From Vicinamibacterales bacterium (GTDB lineage: Bacteria > Acidobacteriota > Vicinamibacteria > Vicinamibacterales > UBA2999), in the NCBI GenBank assembly GCA_030680175.1, contig JAUXWO010000082.1, positions 1 to 48,912 on the forward strand: 48,912 nucleotides of DNA, read 5' to 3'. Positions 9,091 to 27,638 of this stretch are shown here, in pieces. The notes beneath the pieces were generated by a model. That model searched no databases and was not told where the DNA came from. It saw nothing but the letters and a program-made list of their open reading frames with translations. Within the stretch, counting starts at the first letter, position 1; every line of letters starts with the position of its first letter. Position numbers and translations under genes: made by a program.

Positions 9091-10170
9091 ATGCGTGTTT
9101 GCCTGACCTTCGCCCTCGCACTCGCCCTGCTGACCCCCACGGCCCCGGCCGCCGCGCAGTCGTGGGCGGACGACGACCTCCGGATCCAACTGCGTGACAC
9201 GGTGCGGGACGCGGTGCGCGACGCCCGAACCGTCGTGCGCATCGAAACCCGCGATGCCGGCCGCCTGGTCCGTGACGTGATGCGTGACGTGCGGCATGCC
9301 ATGCGCGATGTGCGGCACGACATGCGCGATGTGCGGCACGACGTGCGCGACCTCCGTCGCGACCTGCGGCACTTGGATGGCCTCGCCCTTTGGGAGGCGC
9401 ACGATGGACAGCGGCAGACCGATCGGGCCACCTCGCCCACCGACGACCCATGCGGCGACCGCGGCGACTGGGGTCGCGGCGAGCGGCACTGCGAGGTCCG
9501 GGACGAGCGCCTCGCGGCGTTCGCCGGCACGCTGTCGGTCAACGCCGCGCCGAACGGCGGGATCAGCGTCCAGGCCTGGGATCAGGACGAGATCCTGGTA
9601 CGCGCCATCGTGAACGCGCAGGCCGAGACCGAGGCCGACGCGAAGCGGATCGCCTCGGAGGTGCAGGTCCAGACGGGCGGCGGCCGCATCGCGGCCACCG
9701 GTCCCGATCTGGGGAACCGCCGGCGTGAGTCGTGGCACGTCAGCTACCGCGTCTTCGTGCCGGCCCGCACCAACCTCGACCTGAATTCCCGCAACGGCGG
9801 CATCGCCATTCGCGGCGTGCAGGGCAGCATCCGCTTCGAGACGACCAACGGCGGCGTCACGCTGGCCGACCTGGGCGGCGACGTGCGCGGCGCCACGCGC
9901 AACGGGGGCCTCAACGTGACGCTCGGCGGCGCGCAGTGGGACGGCGCGGGGCTCGATGTCGAGACCTCCAACGGCGGTGTGAACCTGAGGGTGCCCGACG
10001 GCTACTCGGCGGAGCTCACCGCGCGGACGGTGAACGGCGGCCTCCGGTCGGAGGTGCCGCTCACCGTGCAGGGCCGCATCGACCGCGAGATCAACAGCAC
10101 GCTCGGCAGCGGCGGCGCCCCCGTGCGCGTGCGCACGACCAACGGCGGCCTGCGCATCACCCGCCGCTAG
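9091..10170 (+). CDS. Secreted DUF4097-type beta-repeat protein with Arg/Asp-rich heptads
   Basis: A 359-residue exported protein. ACAGGAGA lies upstream of the ATG, followed by a signal peptide (residues 1-23, LTFALALALLTPTAPAAA, cleavage after AQ). Residues 30-100 are extremely charged, with a heptad repeat of the form MRDVRHD repeated three to five times, predicted as a long alpha helix. After a polar linker, residues about 140-359 carry regularly spaced N-G-G turns (RNGGIAI, TNGGVTL, RNGGLNV, SNGGVNL, VNGGLRS, TNGGLRI), the signature of DUF4097 adhesin-like right-handed beta structures. It is probably cell-surface or periplasmic; no enzymatic role can be assigned. Its TAG stop shares the palindrome CTAG with the stop of the convergent pseudogene. 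Confidence 0.85.
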   Translation: MRVCLTFALALALLTPTAPAAAQSWADDDLRIQLRDTVRDAVRDARTVVRIETRDAGRLVRDVMRDVRHAMRDVRHDMRDVRHDVRDLRRDLRHLDGLALWEAHDGQRQTDRATSPTDDPCGDRGDWGRGERHCEVRDERLAAFAGTLSVNAAPNGGISVQAWDQDEILVRAIVNAQAETEADAKRIASEVQVQTGGGRIAATGPDLGNRRRESWHVSYRVFVPARTNLDLNSRNGGIAIRGVQGSIRFETTNGGVTLADLGGDVRGATRNGGLNVTLGGAQWDGAGLDVETSNGGVNLRVPDGYSAELTARTVNGGLRSEVPLTVQGRIDREINSTLGSGGAPVRVRTTNGGLRITRR

Positions 10171-11563
10171 CCTTTCGGCCCCTTCCCCGCCGGCGGGCCC
10201 GCGCCTGCCGGCGGCCCCTTCCCTTCAGGCGGACCCGCCCCCTCGGGCGGCCCCTTCCCTTCCGGCGGGCCCTTCCCCTCGGGCGGGCCGGTCATCGTGC
10301 CGGCCCCAGTCAGCGTCACCACCACCGGCGGCACGGGCGCATCGACGGCACTGATGGTCAGCGTGGCCGCGTACGTCGCGTTGGCCTCGGGCGCGAACCG
10401 CACCTCGGCCATCCGCGTCTCCCCCGGCGCCAGGGGGCCCTCGATCGAGGTGGCCGTGAACGCCGCCTCTCCGTCCCCGCTGAGCACCGCCTCGGTGAGG
10501 ACGAGTGCGTCGCCGCCGGTGTTGGTGATCGAGACCGTGACGGGCGCGCTCGTGCCAGGCACGCGGATGGTGCCGAAGTCGATCGACAGCGGCGTGCCCG
10601 ACAGCAGGCCCGAGACGCCCACGCCGGTGAGGCCCACGGTGGCCTCGACCGCAGTGAGGCCCTCGGCCCCCACCCGCAGCGTCGCGGCAAACTCACCGGT
10701 CGTGGCCGGCAGGAACGCCACCTCGATGACGAGGCTGTGGCCGGGCGCGAGCGTGACGGGACCATCGGGCACGCCCACCAGGAAGGCCGTCGCGTCGCCC
10801 TCGAGCGCATAGGCGCCCGTGAGCGTGAGCGCGCTCGTCCCGGTATTGGTGATGGCCAGCGTCCGCGCCATGGAGGCACGTCCGACCAGCTGCCCGCCGA
10901 ACTCCACCGCGAGCGGTGCGATGGCGAGCTCCATCGTCGCGCCGGCGCCGGAGAGCGGGACTTCGAGCCGCGTCTCGGCCGGCGCCTCGCTCAGGAGCGT
11001 CAGGACGCCCGCGTGCGCACCGACGGTCAGCGGCGCGAATGCGACCGCCACTTCGAGGCTCGCCCCAGGGGGGTGAAGGCAAGCGTGAGCGCCACCTGGT
11101 CGCCCGGCGCCACCACGACGGGCGGCACGTCGACCGCGGCGAAGTCCGAGGCGTGTGCGCCGGAGGTGACGAGGCCGGAGACCACGAGGTCGCGCCAGCC
11201 GTCGTTGGCCACGACGAGGGGCGCCGTGGCCGGCTGACCGATGTTCGTCGGCGTGAACATGACGGCCGCCTCGACCACCCGAATGCGCGGCGCGAGCTGG
11301 TACGTCACCGGCACGCTGTTCGAGGCCTGCCCGGCGACGCTGACGATGACCGCCACCGTCGGGTCGTCACCGGCGTACGGAGGCGTCGTGCAGCGCACCG
11401 ATGTGTGGGACCACCCGCCGGCGGTCACCACACACGCCTGCCCGCCCAGTGTCACCTGCCCCGACGTGCCGAGGCTCGTACCGAAGAGCTCCAACTCCTG
11501 CCCGCCCTCCGGGGCGAGCTCAGCGGGGAACACCGAGGCGGGACGACCCCCAGCAGCGGTCTA
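10167..11563 (-). pseudogene. ASH/choice-of-anchor-type gene, broken (5' truncated and frameshifted)
   Basis: Two open segments on the minus strand, 11027-11563 and 10167-11051, encode parts of one secreted protein family: an IPT/TIG-like start (GGQELELFGTSLGTSGQVTL) and several ASH (ASPM-SPD-2-Hydin) beta domains with APGxxxxxxVxFxP motifs. The first segment runs VALTLAFTP and then leaves frame at the C6/G4 tract near 11062-11074. In the other frame the sequence immediately reads PPGASLEVAVAFAPLTVGAH, which is itself the same position of another ASH domain. A simple 1-bp slip would place two equivalent strands about ten residues apart, so a deletion between repeats, or assembly collapse, fits better. 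There is no start codon or signal peptide: a TAG at 11561-11563 precedes the TIG part by about 10 codons. The tail is six GPPEGK-like hexapeptides. Confidence 0.75.
10170..10289. repeat. 18-bp repeat encoding GPPEGK-type hexapeptides
   Basis: Six near-identical 18-bp units at the 3' end of the ASH pseudogene encode, on the minus strand, GPPEGK, GPPEGK, GPPEGA, GPPEGK, GPPAGA and GPPAGK before the final GPKG. It is a low-complexity Gly/Pro tail. Confidence 0.85.
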
Positions 11564-21040: not shown

Positions 21041-21216
21041 GCGAGGGCGTGTGCCGCGGCTGACGGCGTTGAGGGCGGCGACGGAATGTGTGCAGCCCGA
21101 GAAGAGGCCACAAGAAAAGGAGGGCCGGCCGGACCCCAACGTCCCGGCCAGCCCTGAAGTGTGAATCGTTTATGGATGAATGCGTTGTCGCTCGTTGGTT
21201 GCGTTCGCCTCCTCTC

Positions 21217-21329
21217 GAGGGGTCTGACCTCTCCCCGGGTCCTTCTCGCCGGGGAGGGGTCTGACCCCTGGTCAGCGAGGGGTCTGACCCCTCCCCTGGT
21301 CCGTCTGAGGGGGGAGGGGTCTGACCCCT
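21217..21329. repeat. Four copies of a palindromic GAGGGGTCTGACCCCT repeat
   Basis: Copies at 21217-21232 (one mismatch), 21254-21269, 21277-21292 and 21314-21329, each an imperfect palindrome with GGGGTC/GACCCC arms. They lie just downstream of the PII gene on its strand and could act as a transcription-ending or mRNA-stabilising cluster. A related GGGGGCTGACCCCTC sequence occurs at 17421-17435 near the start of the ADOP permease. Confidence 0.75.
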
Positions 21330-21336
21330 GCTCACC

Positions 21337-23162: not shown

Positions 23163-24740
<1,578 letters not shown>

Positions 24741-25045
24741 GCGTCGAGACTACGACAGAATTGTCGGACCCGCTCACGCAAACAACGGATATGTCGGATG
24801 CCTCCAGATCATCGGCTCCAGCGGAGTGCATCGACTGAAGAGGTACTACCAGCGCCTCTGCTCAACCGCGATTCCGCGGGCCGCCCAGCGGGCCGCCCGG
24901 CAGCAAATCTTCAACGACACGCCACCAGAGCCGGACCACAATATTTGGTGGACGGCGGCGCATCCACTACAATTGCGGCCGTACGGTCACGTGGTTTCCG
25001 GCCCCGTCCGGTCGCCAGCCGCCGTGGTCCGCGGGAGGGCTTCCC
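24741..25045. other. Divergent spacer between activator and ParA-like genes
   Basis: 305 bp without a gene. Near the activator start lies the inverted repeat CGACA-GAAT-TGTCG (24753-24766) and two copies of TGTCGGA (24762-24768, 24792-24798), a possible operator. The right end carries a promoter-like sequence for the ParA gene. The middle, around 24810-24930, shows no recognisable signal. Confidence 0.5.
24945..24973 (+). promoter_or_regulatory. Sigma-70-type promoter of the ParA-like gene
   Basis: TTGGTG at 24945-24950, a 17-nt spacer, and TACAAT at 24968-24973 (five of six -10 bases). Transcription would start near 24980, leaving a 5' leader of about 65 nt. The -35 lies next to an AT-rich CACAATATTTGG stretch. 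Confidence 0.45.
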
Positions 25046-25867
25046 ATGCGACGGATCGCCATCGTCAACATGAAGGGCGGCGTCGGCAAGACGACCACGG
25101 CCGTGCAGATCGCGGCCGGCTTCGCGGCCCGCGGACGGCGCGTGCTGCTGGTCGACGCGGACCCGCAGGGCAACATCGGGCACGTGCTCGGGCTCACGGC
25201 GCCCCGCACCGTGCGCGACCTGATGCTCGGCGAGTGCGGCCCCGGCGACGCCATCGTGCGCGAGGCGCGCCCGGGCCTCGACGTCATCACGGCCACGCCG
25301 GCCGCCTTCGCCCTGGAATCACAGCTGGCGGGCACGATTCAGCGGGAGACGCTGCTCGCGCGACGGCTTCGCGACGTGCGCGGCGTGGACGTGCTCGTGT
25401 TCGACACGTCCCCGGCGATGAACCTGCTGACCTACAATGCGCTGCTGGCCGCCAACGAACTCGTCCTGCCGGTGGGGATGGACTCGCTGGCGCTGATGGG
25501 CGCGCGCCAGACGCTCGACGGCGTGAACGAGATTCGCGGGCTGTGGCCGGAACGGACGCTGTCGCTCGCGGCCGTCGTCCCGACGGCGGTGAGCGCACAG
25601 ACGCACGCCAGCCGCGCGGTCCTCGAGGCCCTCGAGGCCGATCCGGAGATGGGCGCCCGGCTGTTCCGTCAGGGCATCCGTCAGTGCATCGACCTGACGT
25701 ATGCCGCCGCCGCGTGCCAGACGATCTGGGAGTACGCGCCGCGGAGCCGGGCGGCGGAGGACTACACGGCGCTGCTTGAGTGGCTGGAGGGGCGCGCCCC
25801 CGCACGCGAGGTCAGGGAAGATGACGAAGAAGAAGCCCCGTCCGTCGTTCAGCGTTCCCCCGCCTGA
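25046..25867 (+). CDS. ParA/MinD-like ATPase
   Basis: A 273-residue cytosolic P-loop ATPase of the ParA superfamily. The deviant Walker A is MKGGVGKTT (signature Lys K10, catalytic Lys K15), the A' motif is VLLVDADPQGN, and Walker B is DVLVFDTSPAMN; a Leu-rich VLPVGMDSLALMGARQTL stretch follows. There is no N-terminal helix-turn-helix and no amphipathic MinD-type C-terminal helix; instead the C-terminus is acidic (REDDEEEAPS). Such ATPases place DNA, chemoreceptor clusters, carboxysomes or other cargo with the help of a small partner protein. There is no ParB or parS nearby, so a cargo-positioning role is more likely than chromosome partition, by inference. The last 47 bp overlap the following small gene. 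GGGAGG precedes the ATG. Confidence 0.9.
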   Translation: MRRIAIVNMKGGVGKTTTAVQIAAGFAARGRRVLLVDADPQGNIGHVLGLTAPRTVRDLMLGECGPGDAIVREARPGLDVITATPAAFALESQLAGTIQRETLLARRLRDVRGVDVLVFDTSPAMNLLTYNALLAANELVLPVGMDSLALMGARQTLDGVNEIRGLWPERTLSLAAVVPTAVSAQTHASRAVLEALEADPEMGARLFRQGIRQCIDLTYAAAACQTIWEYAPRSRAAEDYTALLEWLEGRAPAREVREDDEEEAPSVVQRSPA

Positions 25868-26195
25868 ACCGGCCAGGGGCAAGGCGCCCGCGGGCGGATG
25901 GGTCTATCGGTCCCCGGAAGGGGCGGCCCTGCCTCCCGCGGCGAGGGCGAAGAAGCCCGCCCCAAAGGCGGCCGTCCCCGCACCCGCGGTCAGGCCCAGC
26001 CGCACACCCGTGGCCCCCGCGGCCCCAGTAGCACCCGCAGCCACGGTGGCGCCCGCGGCCCCCGAGGCGAAGACGCCGGCACGGGCGCCCCGCCCGGCAA
26101 GCGGGGGCGTCTCCCGTGTCCTGGCGTGTGTGCTGTTCCCGATCTCGCTCGCGACGACCGCCGCCGGCCGTCTCGTCCTCGGCCGCCGTCGCTGA
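25821..26195 (+). CDS. Small Pro/Ala-rich protein with hydrophobic C-terminus, overlapping ParA gene
   Basis: A 124-residue protein starting at the ATG at 25821, inside the 3' end of the ParA gene (47-bp overlap in another frame), with CAGGGAAG just upstream. Residues 1-15 are basic (MTKKKPRPSFSVPPP), a short GWVYRSPEG motif follows (about 26-34), residues 35-95 are a disordered Pro/Ala/Lys stretch with VAPAAP-like repeats, and residues about 97-120 form a hydrophobic segment (VSRVLACVLFPISLATTAAG) ending in RRR. I know no family for it. Gene overlap, basic N-terminus and disorder are what small ParA partner proteins (McdB- or ParC-like) look like, so it may tether the ATPase or its cargo to the membrane. 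That role is inference. The compositional bias could also allow a spurious frame, but the neat Shine-Dalgarno argues against this. Confidence 0.65.
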   Translation: MTKKKPRPSFSVPPPEPARGKAPAGGWVYRSPEGAALPPAARAKKPAPKAAVPAPAVRPSRTPVAPAAPVAPAATVAPAAPEAKTPARAPRPASGGVSRVLACVLFPISLATTAAGRLVLGRRR

Positions 26196-26199
26196 CGGC
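26185..26199. terminator. Short hairpin at the ParA-operon end
   Basis: GCCGTC (26185-26190) and GACGGC (26194-26199) pair around GCT and contain the TGA stop of the small protein; the right arm touches the stop of the convergent peptidase gene. The 6-bp stem has no T-run. Confidence 0.3.
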
Positions 26200-27638
26200 T
26201 ACTTCGGCTCGGGAATCCGCTGTCCGTTCAGGTCGACGAACGTGATGTTCGAGAACCCGGTGAGCTGGTCCTTGACCTGCGGGTAGTCGCCCACGATCAC
26301 CACCAGCGAGTCGTCCGATCCGAGCAGCATCTGCGCGCCGACCGTCACCATCTCGGCCGACGGCTGCGAGATCTGCCGTTGGAACGTCTCCGGATAGTCG
26401 GCCGGCAAGCCGTTCGTGTGCACGGTGTTCAGCGTGCCGGCGAAGCCATTCTGCGTGGCGTTCTGGATGACGAACACGCCGCGCGCGTAGGTCTTCGCGT
26501 CCACGAGTTCCTCGGCATGCGGCCCCTGCTGGCGCATGAGGTCGATCTCCTTGTAGACCTCCTGCAGCGCCGCGCCCGTCACCTCGTTCCGCACGTCCGC
26601 CACCGCGCGGTACAGGCCGCCATGCGCCATGGCCTGGAACTGCGACTGCGGGGAGTAGGTGTAGCCCTTCTCCTCGCGGATGTTGCGGATGAGCCGCGAG
26701 TCGAATGACGCGCCGTAGATCTGATTGGCGAGCTGCAATGCGTACCAGCGGGGATCGTTGCGGCGAATCGAGAAGTTGCCGACGGCGATCGACGACTGCA
26801 CGCTGTTCGGCCGCTGCACGAACACCAGCCGGCGGCCCTTGAGCGTCGGCATCTCCGGCGCCCGCGACGCCGGCACCCCGGCGCGCGCCCACCCGCTAAA
26901 CGCCCGCTCGGCCGCCGCAAACACCGCGTCCGGGGGGAGGTTGCCGACCACCACGAGGAACGCATTGTTCGGCCGGTAGTAGGTCCGGTGGTAGTCGACG
27001 ATCGCGGCGCGATCGATATTGGGCAGCGTTTCCTCCGTCGGCCCGATCCGCGCGTACGGATGGCTGCCGAACAGCTCGCGCCGGAACACGCGGTTGTTGA
27101 CGAACTGCGGCGAGGCCAGCTGCGCGCGCAGCGCCTGCGCCGTGTTCGCCTTCAGCAGATCGATCTCGCCCTGCGGGAACGTCGGGTTCCGGACCACGTC
27201 CGAGAGCAGCGTCAGCATCTGCGGCAGCGTGTCGCTCAGCCCGCGCATCTGGAACGTCGAGGCGTCCTGCCCGGCGAATCCGGAGAGCGTCGCGCCGAGG
27301 CCGAACACCTCGCGCTTGATCTGCTCGCTGTCGCGGCTCGTCGTCCCCTCCTGCGCGGCATCCGCGACGAACTGCGCCAGCCCGGCACGATCGGCGGGAT
27401 CCATGGCGAGGCCCGACTGGATCGTCAGGATCGCCGTCGTCTTCGGCACGAGGGCGTACTGGACGGCGATCACGCGCAGCCCATTCGGGAGGGTGCGCTC
27501 CACGCGCGGCGGCGGCGTGAACTGGCGCTCCGCGCCCACGGCCGGACGCGGCGGCGCCTGCCCCCAGGCGGCGGCCGGCCCGGCAACGGCCGCGATCAGG
27601 GCGAACGCCGCCGGACGGCTGAAGAGACGGCGGATCAT
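26199..27638 (-). CDS. M16 family protein, catalytically inactive subunit
   Basis: A 479-residue exported protein. AGGGAGG lies before the ATG at 27636-27638; the signal peptide is about residues 1-27 (AFALIAAVAGPAAAWGQ). It has the two-lobed M16 peptidase fold (TLPNGLRVIAV, PNNAFLVVVGNLPPD, FDSRLIRNIREEKGYTYSP), but where active members have HxxEH the sequence reads Q89-F-V-A-D93, so the zinc ligands and catalytic Glu are gone. Paired inactive and active M16 subunits are common, like the alpha and beta subunits of mitochondrial processing peptidase. The active partner is encoded immediately upstream with a 4-bp ATGA overlap (27635-27638), so the pair is probably made in equal amounts and works as a periplasmic heterodimer. 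The R/Y pair in EEKGYTYS is kept. Confidence 0.93.
   Translation of the reverse strand: MIRRLFSRPAAFALIAAVAGPAAAWGQAPPRPAVGAERQFTPPPRVERTLPNGLRVIAVQYALVPKTTAILTIQSGLAMDPADRAGLAQFVADAAQEGTTSRDSEQIKREVFGLGATLSGFAGQDASTFQMRGLSDTLPQMLTLLSDVVRNPTFPQGEIDLLKANTAQALRAQLASPQFVNNRVFRRELFGSHPYARIGPTEETLPNIDRAAIVDYHRTYYRPNNAFLVVVGNLPPDAVFAAAERAFSGWARAGVPASRAPEMPTLKGRRLVFVQRPNSVQSSIAVGNFSIRRNDPRWYALQLANQIYGASFDSRLIRNIREEKGYTYSPQSQFQAMAHGGLYRAVADVRNEVTGAALQEVYKEIDLMRQQGPHAEELVDAKTYARGVFVIQNATQNGFAGTLNTVHTNGLPADYPETFQRQISQPSAEMVTVGAQMLLGSDDSLVVIVGDYPQVKDQLTGFSNITFVDLNGQRIPEPK

Follow-up and report, generated by a model that had tools for sequence, protein, structure and literature searches.

A pair of overlapping genes in the window (the whole stretch of 48,912 nucleotides analysed here) probably represents a mobile, free-standing module in which a Soj-fold ATPase works with an adaptor that is anchored in the membrane and acts through a peptide at its N-terminus. 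This reading is drawn from the form of the partner protein, which fits the published form of ATPase-activating partners, with a hydrophobic C-terminus in the position of the cargo. From the sequences and predicted structures we infer partner-ATPase binding, stimulation of the ATPase, membrane insertion and positioning. No description of the ATPase/partner pair was found in the literature (open-licence papers). The features of the cassette are as follows.

25046..25867, + strand: ParA/Soj-type ATPase gene; 273 aa; deviant Walker A, switch Asp39, Walker B Asp120
25821..26195, + strand: partner gene; 124 aa; ATG at 25821, stop at 26195; starts inside the ATPase gene
25808..25820, + strand: GAGG or AGGGA as candidate ribosome-binding site of the partner, read from the sequence
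25821..25928, + strand: N-terminal basic module of the partner, KKKPRPSFSVP...GWVYRS, residues 1-36; proposed ATPase-contacting peptide
25929..26102, + strand: Pro/Ala-rich linker of the partner; no secondary structure is predicted for the corresponding stretch of the L040 homologue
26103..26192, + strand: C-terminal hydrophobic segment of the partner with RRR end; proposed membrane anchor, of borderline hydrophobicity in the window copy

The gene pair, its family and its distribution

The original prediction placed the ATPase and its partner at 25046-26195 and had the second gene begin 47 bp within the first; the same coordinates were recovered here, with the overlap at 25821-25867. The Shine-Dalgarno sequence that it gave to the partner is present as two candidates, GAGG at 25808-25811 (9 nt 5' of the ATG) and AGGGA at 25814-25818 (2 nt 5' of it), which are only fair. 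Upstream of the cassette lies a sigma54 activator gene (23163-24740) read in the opposite direction, and downstream a convergent M16 peptidase gene with its stop at 26199. Since the one neighbour is divergent in direction and the other convergent, the same-direction unit consists of the ATPase and the partner only. There are no sigma70-like promoters or terminators in 24700-26400, and no Rfam matches in the window.

Just upstream of the cassette (24816-24929) is a dispersed repeat of about 110 bp, copies of which, at 85-88% identity, occur in three short loci of the same genome (L127, L007 and L126). Because these are three of the few short same-genome loci compared, the repeat is probably numerous genome-wide. 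Elsewhere, the window carries in-frame repeats at 9202-9368 and 10176-10289, whose units are 21 nt (DVRHDMR-like) and 18 nt (GPPEGK-like) long, and two intergenic 59-bp repeats with GGGGTCTGACC motifs at 21216-21334.

A search of 59 genomes (the window's own and its relatives) found five close loci (E<=1e-102), the window's own and four that are 63-71% identical to it; after these, identity drops to 36% (E 2e-34). A collection scan gave at least 8 loci at 59-68%, with the next among the matches listed at 34%. Three proteins are the same in both searches (L009 and L038, L010 and L039, L012 and L043). The 16 cassettes compared below are the window, the distinct loci of both searches, L130 and L134-L138. 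Seven of the eight collection loci come from Acidobacteria or Terriglobia/Bryobacteraceae and one, L038, from Acidimicrobiia; the L038 ATPase is identical to that of G029, a genome that belongs to the same family group as the window. The 16 family members form one clade (99/97) in a tree of 50 ATPases. Its sister is L131 (support 100/99), 46% identical to the window ATPase, and the MerR-fused ATPases of Desulfomonile-type genomes come next (93/84, long branch).

In the latter genomes a MerR-like HTH (by eye) is fused to a ParA-like ATPase (L047:4755-5810, L057:3-1007, L065:602-1738). The small ORF that follows has KPDY..F, PAPL and DIPW[AG]E motifs, with a transmembrane-like stretch at its C-terminus; the pair has the same architecture as the window cassette and a different motif. 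Small proteins also come directly after four cyanobacterial and one viral-contig ParA genes (L055, L056, L059, L061, L163), and these share an N-terminal LGxNPLA...GIFSKT.

The cassette is present in 5 of 396 genomes of the phylum, the window's own included (E<=1e-60); a search of the same 396 genomes for the L131-type ATPase matched the known family members alone. In the class of G430, 7 of 299 genomes carry the cassette or the L131 type (1e-65). Pseudomonadota, the phylum of a Citrobacter genome, gave 0/398 at E<=1e-55 in a draw without a positive control. All these large draws scored the best 6-8 candidates per genome and are samples, not a census. Among viral contigs (80 loci kept) the best full-length match among those listed was at 34%, and a 63% match covers ATPase residues 1-48 only. 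Ten of 2877 plasmid records, outside the 144 banded at 60-80%, reached 35.9% at most, and 5 of 70 phage records, outside the 2 banded at 60-80%, reached 34.1%. No close family member was among these viral, plasmid and phage matches.

At the nine loci compared, no flanking gene family occurs at more than two. The flanks that recur, named partly by eye, do so in different places: a sigma54 activator (window and L040), a permease-like frame (window and L038) and a cyclophilin-like frame (L039 and L045). An HhH-GPD gene and its neighbour flank the cassette and a TMEM175-like gene in G001, where about 1,915 bp separate the two flanking frames. In the congeners G387, G337 and G024 the site is uninterrupted, the matching stretches being separated by about 177, 73 and 138 bp, with synteny on both sides. 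From this arrangement, a gain of the cassette in G001 appears likelier than three losses. The TMEM175-like gene of G001 (L243:8172-9910) was found in none of six other genomes searched. In another congener, G029, the cassette and the HhH-GPD gene are on different contigs; G428 holds two cassettes; and the search for the window flank in G033 gave no clean uninterrupted site. We read the cassette, from these distributions, as a patchy and mobile two-gene module.

The ATPase

The full deviant Walker A of the original prediction is borne out by the P-loop MKGGVGKT and a Pfam AAA_31 match (E 2.5e-38); the best 25 of 37 NCBIfam matches are all below their own cut-offs. K10, K15 and D39 are kept in all 15 family rows that extend this far, L138 being truncated at its contig end, and the Walker B D120 in 16 of 16. 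The marks of the ParA/MinD superfamily, namely a KGGxxK[ST] P-loop with its signature Lys, the switch Asp and the Walker B Asp, are thus all present. R212, Q213, C214, D216, Q225 and W228 are invariant in the family. In an AlphaFold2 model of the L040 member the ATPase blocks have pLDDT 89-98, and the nearest folds found with Foldseek are Soj, ParA and McdA (TMt 0.83-0.93). Judged by this model, the ATPase is of the Soj/ParA fold and a member of the ParA/MinD (deviant Walker A) superfamily. Its C-terminal tail is variable across the family and nearly absent in L040 (by eye); hence there is no evident amphipathic membrane-targeting helix of the MinD type.

In agreement with the original prediction, the ATPase stands apart from ParB and parS. 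The canonical chromosomal parS 16-mer is absent from the window with up to 3 mismatches and from the family loci with up to 2, a search that does find one at L003, a ParAB locus of the same genome. A tblastn search with the genome's two ParBs (E<=0.01), in which each query found the other's locus as a positive control, gave no ParB homologue at any of the 16 cassettes, six of the 15 loci being covered by 2.1-3.8 kb. The earlier concern that the ATPase might sit beside ParB elsewhere was not borne out at the 15 other family loci. The two other ParAs of the genome, L002 and L003, are each beside a ParB, and L003 also has a parS-like site.

The positions that contact DNA in CcParA were placed on our alignment, as a probable numbering, through Thermus Soj and the CcParA sequence. 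The CcParA residues concerned are R221, R224, K233 and K241, according to PMC7229837. At the R221 position the family has Q213 in 16/16 and the comparison ParAs have K in 24/25 and R in 1/25; at R224 the family has D216 in 16/16 and the comparison ParAs R in 25/25. At K233 the family has Q225 in 16/16 and the comparison ParAs E or L; at K241, R/K in 15/16 against mostly D or E. The comparison set of 25 ParA homologues is made up of 24 of one orthologous type and L003, and five of the 25 adjoin ParB (by eye). The L131 ATPase has Q and K at the R221 and R224 positions, and the Desulfomonile-type ATPases Q and N. Arginines are kept elsewhere in the family, R212 and R235 in 16/16 and R233 in 14/16, and the net charge of the DNA-contact segment is -2 to +3 in the family versus -1 to +2 in the comparison set. 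A simple loss of DNA binding is argued against, because the family is not less basic at the K233/K241 positions, R212 and R235 are invariant and the net charge is not lower.

The partner protein

The partner frame stands at the 3' end of the ATPase gene in all 16 distinct cassettes (the window and 15 others). WVYR is exact in 13 of the 16 partners, with WAFR in L135 and L138 and WVDI in L137; the pair and its motif therefore do co-occur across acidobacterial genomes, a check proposed with the original prediction. Among the first 10 partners, 8 have an ATG start, and a TTG or CTG is needed in L011 and L043. The L040 partner starts directly after the ATPase stop; the other nine overlap, in L011 and L043 if the non-ATG starts are correct.

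The window protein is, as predicted, basic and Pro/Ala-rich, with GWVYRS at residues 26-31. P8, F10, W27, V28, Y29 and R30 are the only invariant positions in a 10-row alignment, and they are invariant also in 9 rows. A motif model built from 9 rows was run against 19 genomes, of which 15 carry the family and 4 do not; for 8 of the 19, scoring covered 150 of the first-look candidates. All 16 matches at E<=0.015 adjoin a family ATPase, in 15 cassettes (L045 twice). Nine of the matched cassettes supplied the model's own rows and seven are independent (L134, L136, L130, L045, L135, L137 and L138). All seven were recovered, L138 more weakly, at E 0.0275, where a stray frame of 37 codons (0.017) outranks it. 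The L045 partner holds the N-terminal module twice, and the extra copy outscores all 1000 shuffles. In the four genomes without the family the best matches were none, 0.601, 0.109 and 0.0569.

Synonymous codon changes underlie P, F, V, Y and R of the motif among the 10 loci compared. In the closest pair, L044/L134, dN/dS of the partner is 0.131 (0.128 outside the overlap) versus 0.068 for the ATPase. In a second pair, L011/L130, it is 0.618 (0.589 outside the overlap) versus 0.185, and the linker is visibly variable. The ratio of the closest pair, rounded to 0.13, indicates that the partner is a real gene kept by purifying selection. A lack of conservation of the small frame, which the original prediction had considered, is thus contradicted by its presence in 16/16 cassettes and by the ratio in the closest pair.

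Two further candidates were rejected. WVYR-like frames elsewhere in the genome gave 12 pattern hits versus 11 in the reversed control, the window partner being the only matching protein (by eye). The N-termini of the L131 and Desulfomonile partners resemble the motif by eye and were rejected as homologues by shuffles, of which 972 (L131), 775 (L047), 29 (L057) and 450 (L065) in 1000 scored as well. It follows that a shared N-terminal module with a swapped C-terminal part stands for L038 only, whose C-terminal part is a DUF697 domain (Pfam 1.2e-6), and not for L131.

The net charge of the first 45 partner residues is positive in 15/16 and zero in L043. When the L040 partner is modelled alone, residues up to 75 lack secondary structure and residues 76-120 form a single helix (pLDDT 86-90 in the middle blocks). 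By charge and by this model, the short, positively charged, disordered N-terminal peptide typical of ATPase-activating partners is present. The hydrophobic C-terminal segment of the original prediction is found in most family partners, the window copy being borderline: the best 19-residue Kyte-Doolittle mean is 1.68 in the window and 0.73 to 2.48 in the relatives, reaching at least 1.6 in 14/16 (L038 at 1.56 and L041 at 0.73 are below). After the segment the charge is basic in 15/16 partners and neutral in L045. The positive-inside rule tells against a basic tail at this place in a single-pass protein with a cytoplasmic N-terminus, and the tails are therefore odd for such a protein. The C-terminal helix possibly lies on the surface or is kinked.

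The window partner has no Pfam, NCBIfam, PHROG or PADLOC family match, and a search of solved structures gave a best E of 0.02, which is chance level. No Pfam DNA-binding domain is present in the 10 partners scanned, and none was seen in the other 6. A single-chain AlphaFold read-through fusion of the L040 ATPase and partner showed no ordered partner, which as a monomer with no partner rows is a weak test. From residue 261 on, the partner had block pLDDT 34-54, the C-terminal helix missing too. A mixed alignment for this fold was dropped because the partner rows landed on the N-terminus of the ATPase.

Proposed working and comparison with known systems

In the working that we propose, the ATPase would dimerise on ATP, and the basic N-terminal module of the adaptor (KK.KP.F..P ... 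GWVYRS) would dock on the dimer and stimulate hydrolysis. A long disordered linker would join this module to the hydrophobic C-terminal helix, which (or, in one member, the DUF697 domain) would hold the adaptor on the membrane. Cycling of the two proteins may then distribute the membrane-bound adaptor and its load along the cell, or tether the ATPase dynamically to the membrane. Some of the data speak against this reading. In the fusion model, weak as that test is, the partner appears unordered. As for the membrane anchor, the predicted segment is borderline in the window and not hydrophobic enough in L041 (0.73). The basic tails, the dN/dS of 0.62 in the second pair, Q213/D216 and the lack of a conserved cargo-pointing neighbour would also count against the adaptor.

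Other explanations were weighed against a membrane-anchored adaptor. The closest outside relative found, L131 (46%), forms at L131:4046-5585 a pair with an overlapping 259-aa partner whose winged-helix region matches phrog replication initiation (1.3e-7) and, below cut-off, MarR_2 (E 0.0012). It lies near a ScpA-family gene and, by eye, XerC-like recombinase, PIN-like and initiator-like genes. Together with the patchy, mobile occurrence of the cassette, this would suit a relic or variant of a plasmid or ICE partition system, now chromosomal, in which the partner binds a centromere. Such an origin is unlikely, given that the family partners show no DNA-binding domain, ParB and canonical parS are missing, and the N-terminus of the L131 partner fails the motif model. 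In addition, neither Pfam nor PHROG gives a match for the initiator-like gene, and the ScpA-family gene beside the pair is of a kind that is usually chromosomal. It is rather doubtful, too, that the module is a membrane-side switch in which the nucleoid is unused and the partner recruits the ATPase to the membrane. The replaced Q213/D216 (with Q and K in L131) and the hydrophobic partner in 14/16 members point that way. However, the comparison set is nearly all of one orthologous type, the family is not less basic at K233/K241, and R212, R233 and R235 could form an alternative DNA patch. The ATPase also has no evident MinD-type helix (by eye), and DNA-binding residues vary widely among working members such as MipZ, according to PMC7229837.

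Two overlapping genes that are mobile, occur patchily and include one for a small hydrophobic protein also recall defence or toxin-antitoxin-like modules, in which the ATPase would control a small membrane-active protein. This is improbable: 13 of the 17 neighbour proteins at 8 loci have a Pfam match and none of these is a recognised defence family. PADLOC matches are limited to about 40-65 residues around the P-loop of the ATPase, with none to two partners and four neighbours, and conservation peaks in the N-terminal motif rather than in the hydrophobic part. Finally, Get3 and ArsA belong to the same broad ATPase class as the ParA-type ATPases, and the hydrophobic C-terminus of the partner could be that of a tail-anchored client of such a chaperone. 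We regard this as very improbable, since the structure best matches Soj, ParA and McdA, with no Get3 among the best 50 Foldseek rows, and Get3 sequences match about the first 55 residues only. A dedicated partner for each ATPase, with a conserved N-terminal motif, is moreover not expected of a client.

A wider evolutionary reading of the adaptor module would be that a partition-type ParA exchanged its DNA-binding partner for a membrane-anchored one, and its DNA-contact residues with it, and now organises the membrane as a mobile positioning cassette. This is speculative and we hold it to be doubtful. It is weakened, as is the membrane-side switch, by the comparison ParAs, which themselves lack basic residues at two of the four positions that contact DNA. 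If it were true, the Desulfomonile-type pair with its clear transmembrane tail would widen the principle of a membrane-organising ParA cassette. If the DNA-contact change matters functionally, it illustrates how the surface on which a partition ATPase works can change. Natural comparisons are offered by L131, whose partner has a winged-helix region, and by the MerR-fused relatives, whose partner has a transmembrane tail. Many ParA/MinD ATPases are termed orphans, with no partner identified (PMC10241942). Here, strict genetic linkage, selection and a motif that is nearly invariant identify the partner, which gives a minimal two-protein system for reconstitution.

Among known systems, ParABS (Soj/Spo0J) shares with the cassette the ATPase fold (TMt up to 0.93), the catalytic residues and the basic N-terminal peptide of the partner. 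In contrast, no ParB or canonical parS was found here, no DNA-binding domain was seen in the partner, and two DNA-contact residues are replaced. McdAB likewise joins an orphan ParA-type ATPase to a small disordered partner, and the McdA fold is close (TMt 0.83-0.87). McdB meets carboxysomes through a C-terminal Trp, according to PMC11321042, whereas here the Trp is N-terminal, the C-terminus is hydrophobic and no carboxysome or BMC gene is among the 17 neighbour proteins at 8 loci (4 without Pfam match). The family-wide substitution of Q213/D216 further complicates a McdA/ParC-like reading. PpfA/TlpT and ParC/ParP of chemosensory arrays (PMC9178275) also have an orphan ParA with a non-ParB partner, unlike the cassette in that no chemotaxis gene occurs among those 17 neighbours. 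With MinD/MinE and FlhG/FleN the cassette probably shares the membrane as one surface, but its ATPase lacks an evident membrane-targeting helix (by eye) and its fold is nearer Soj than MinD.

PomX/PomY/PomZ is similar in combining a ParA-type ATPase with a partner that has a short basic N-terminal peptide. In Myxococcus, this peptide of PomX activates PomZ; PomX itself forms a meshwork of filaments by self-assembly and acts alongside a second activator, PomY (PMC13170346). The cassette, in contrast, has one small partner. The original prediction could assign the pair to no type that it could name. The partner's make-up nevertheless matches the general scheme of ParA/MinD partners, as published in PMC10241942 and PMC13170346, which makes the pair a variant within the ParA/MinD systems.
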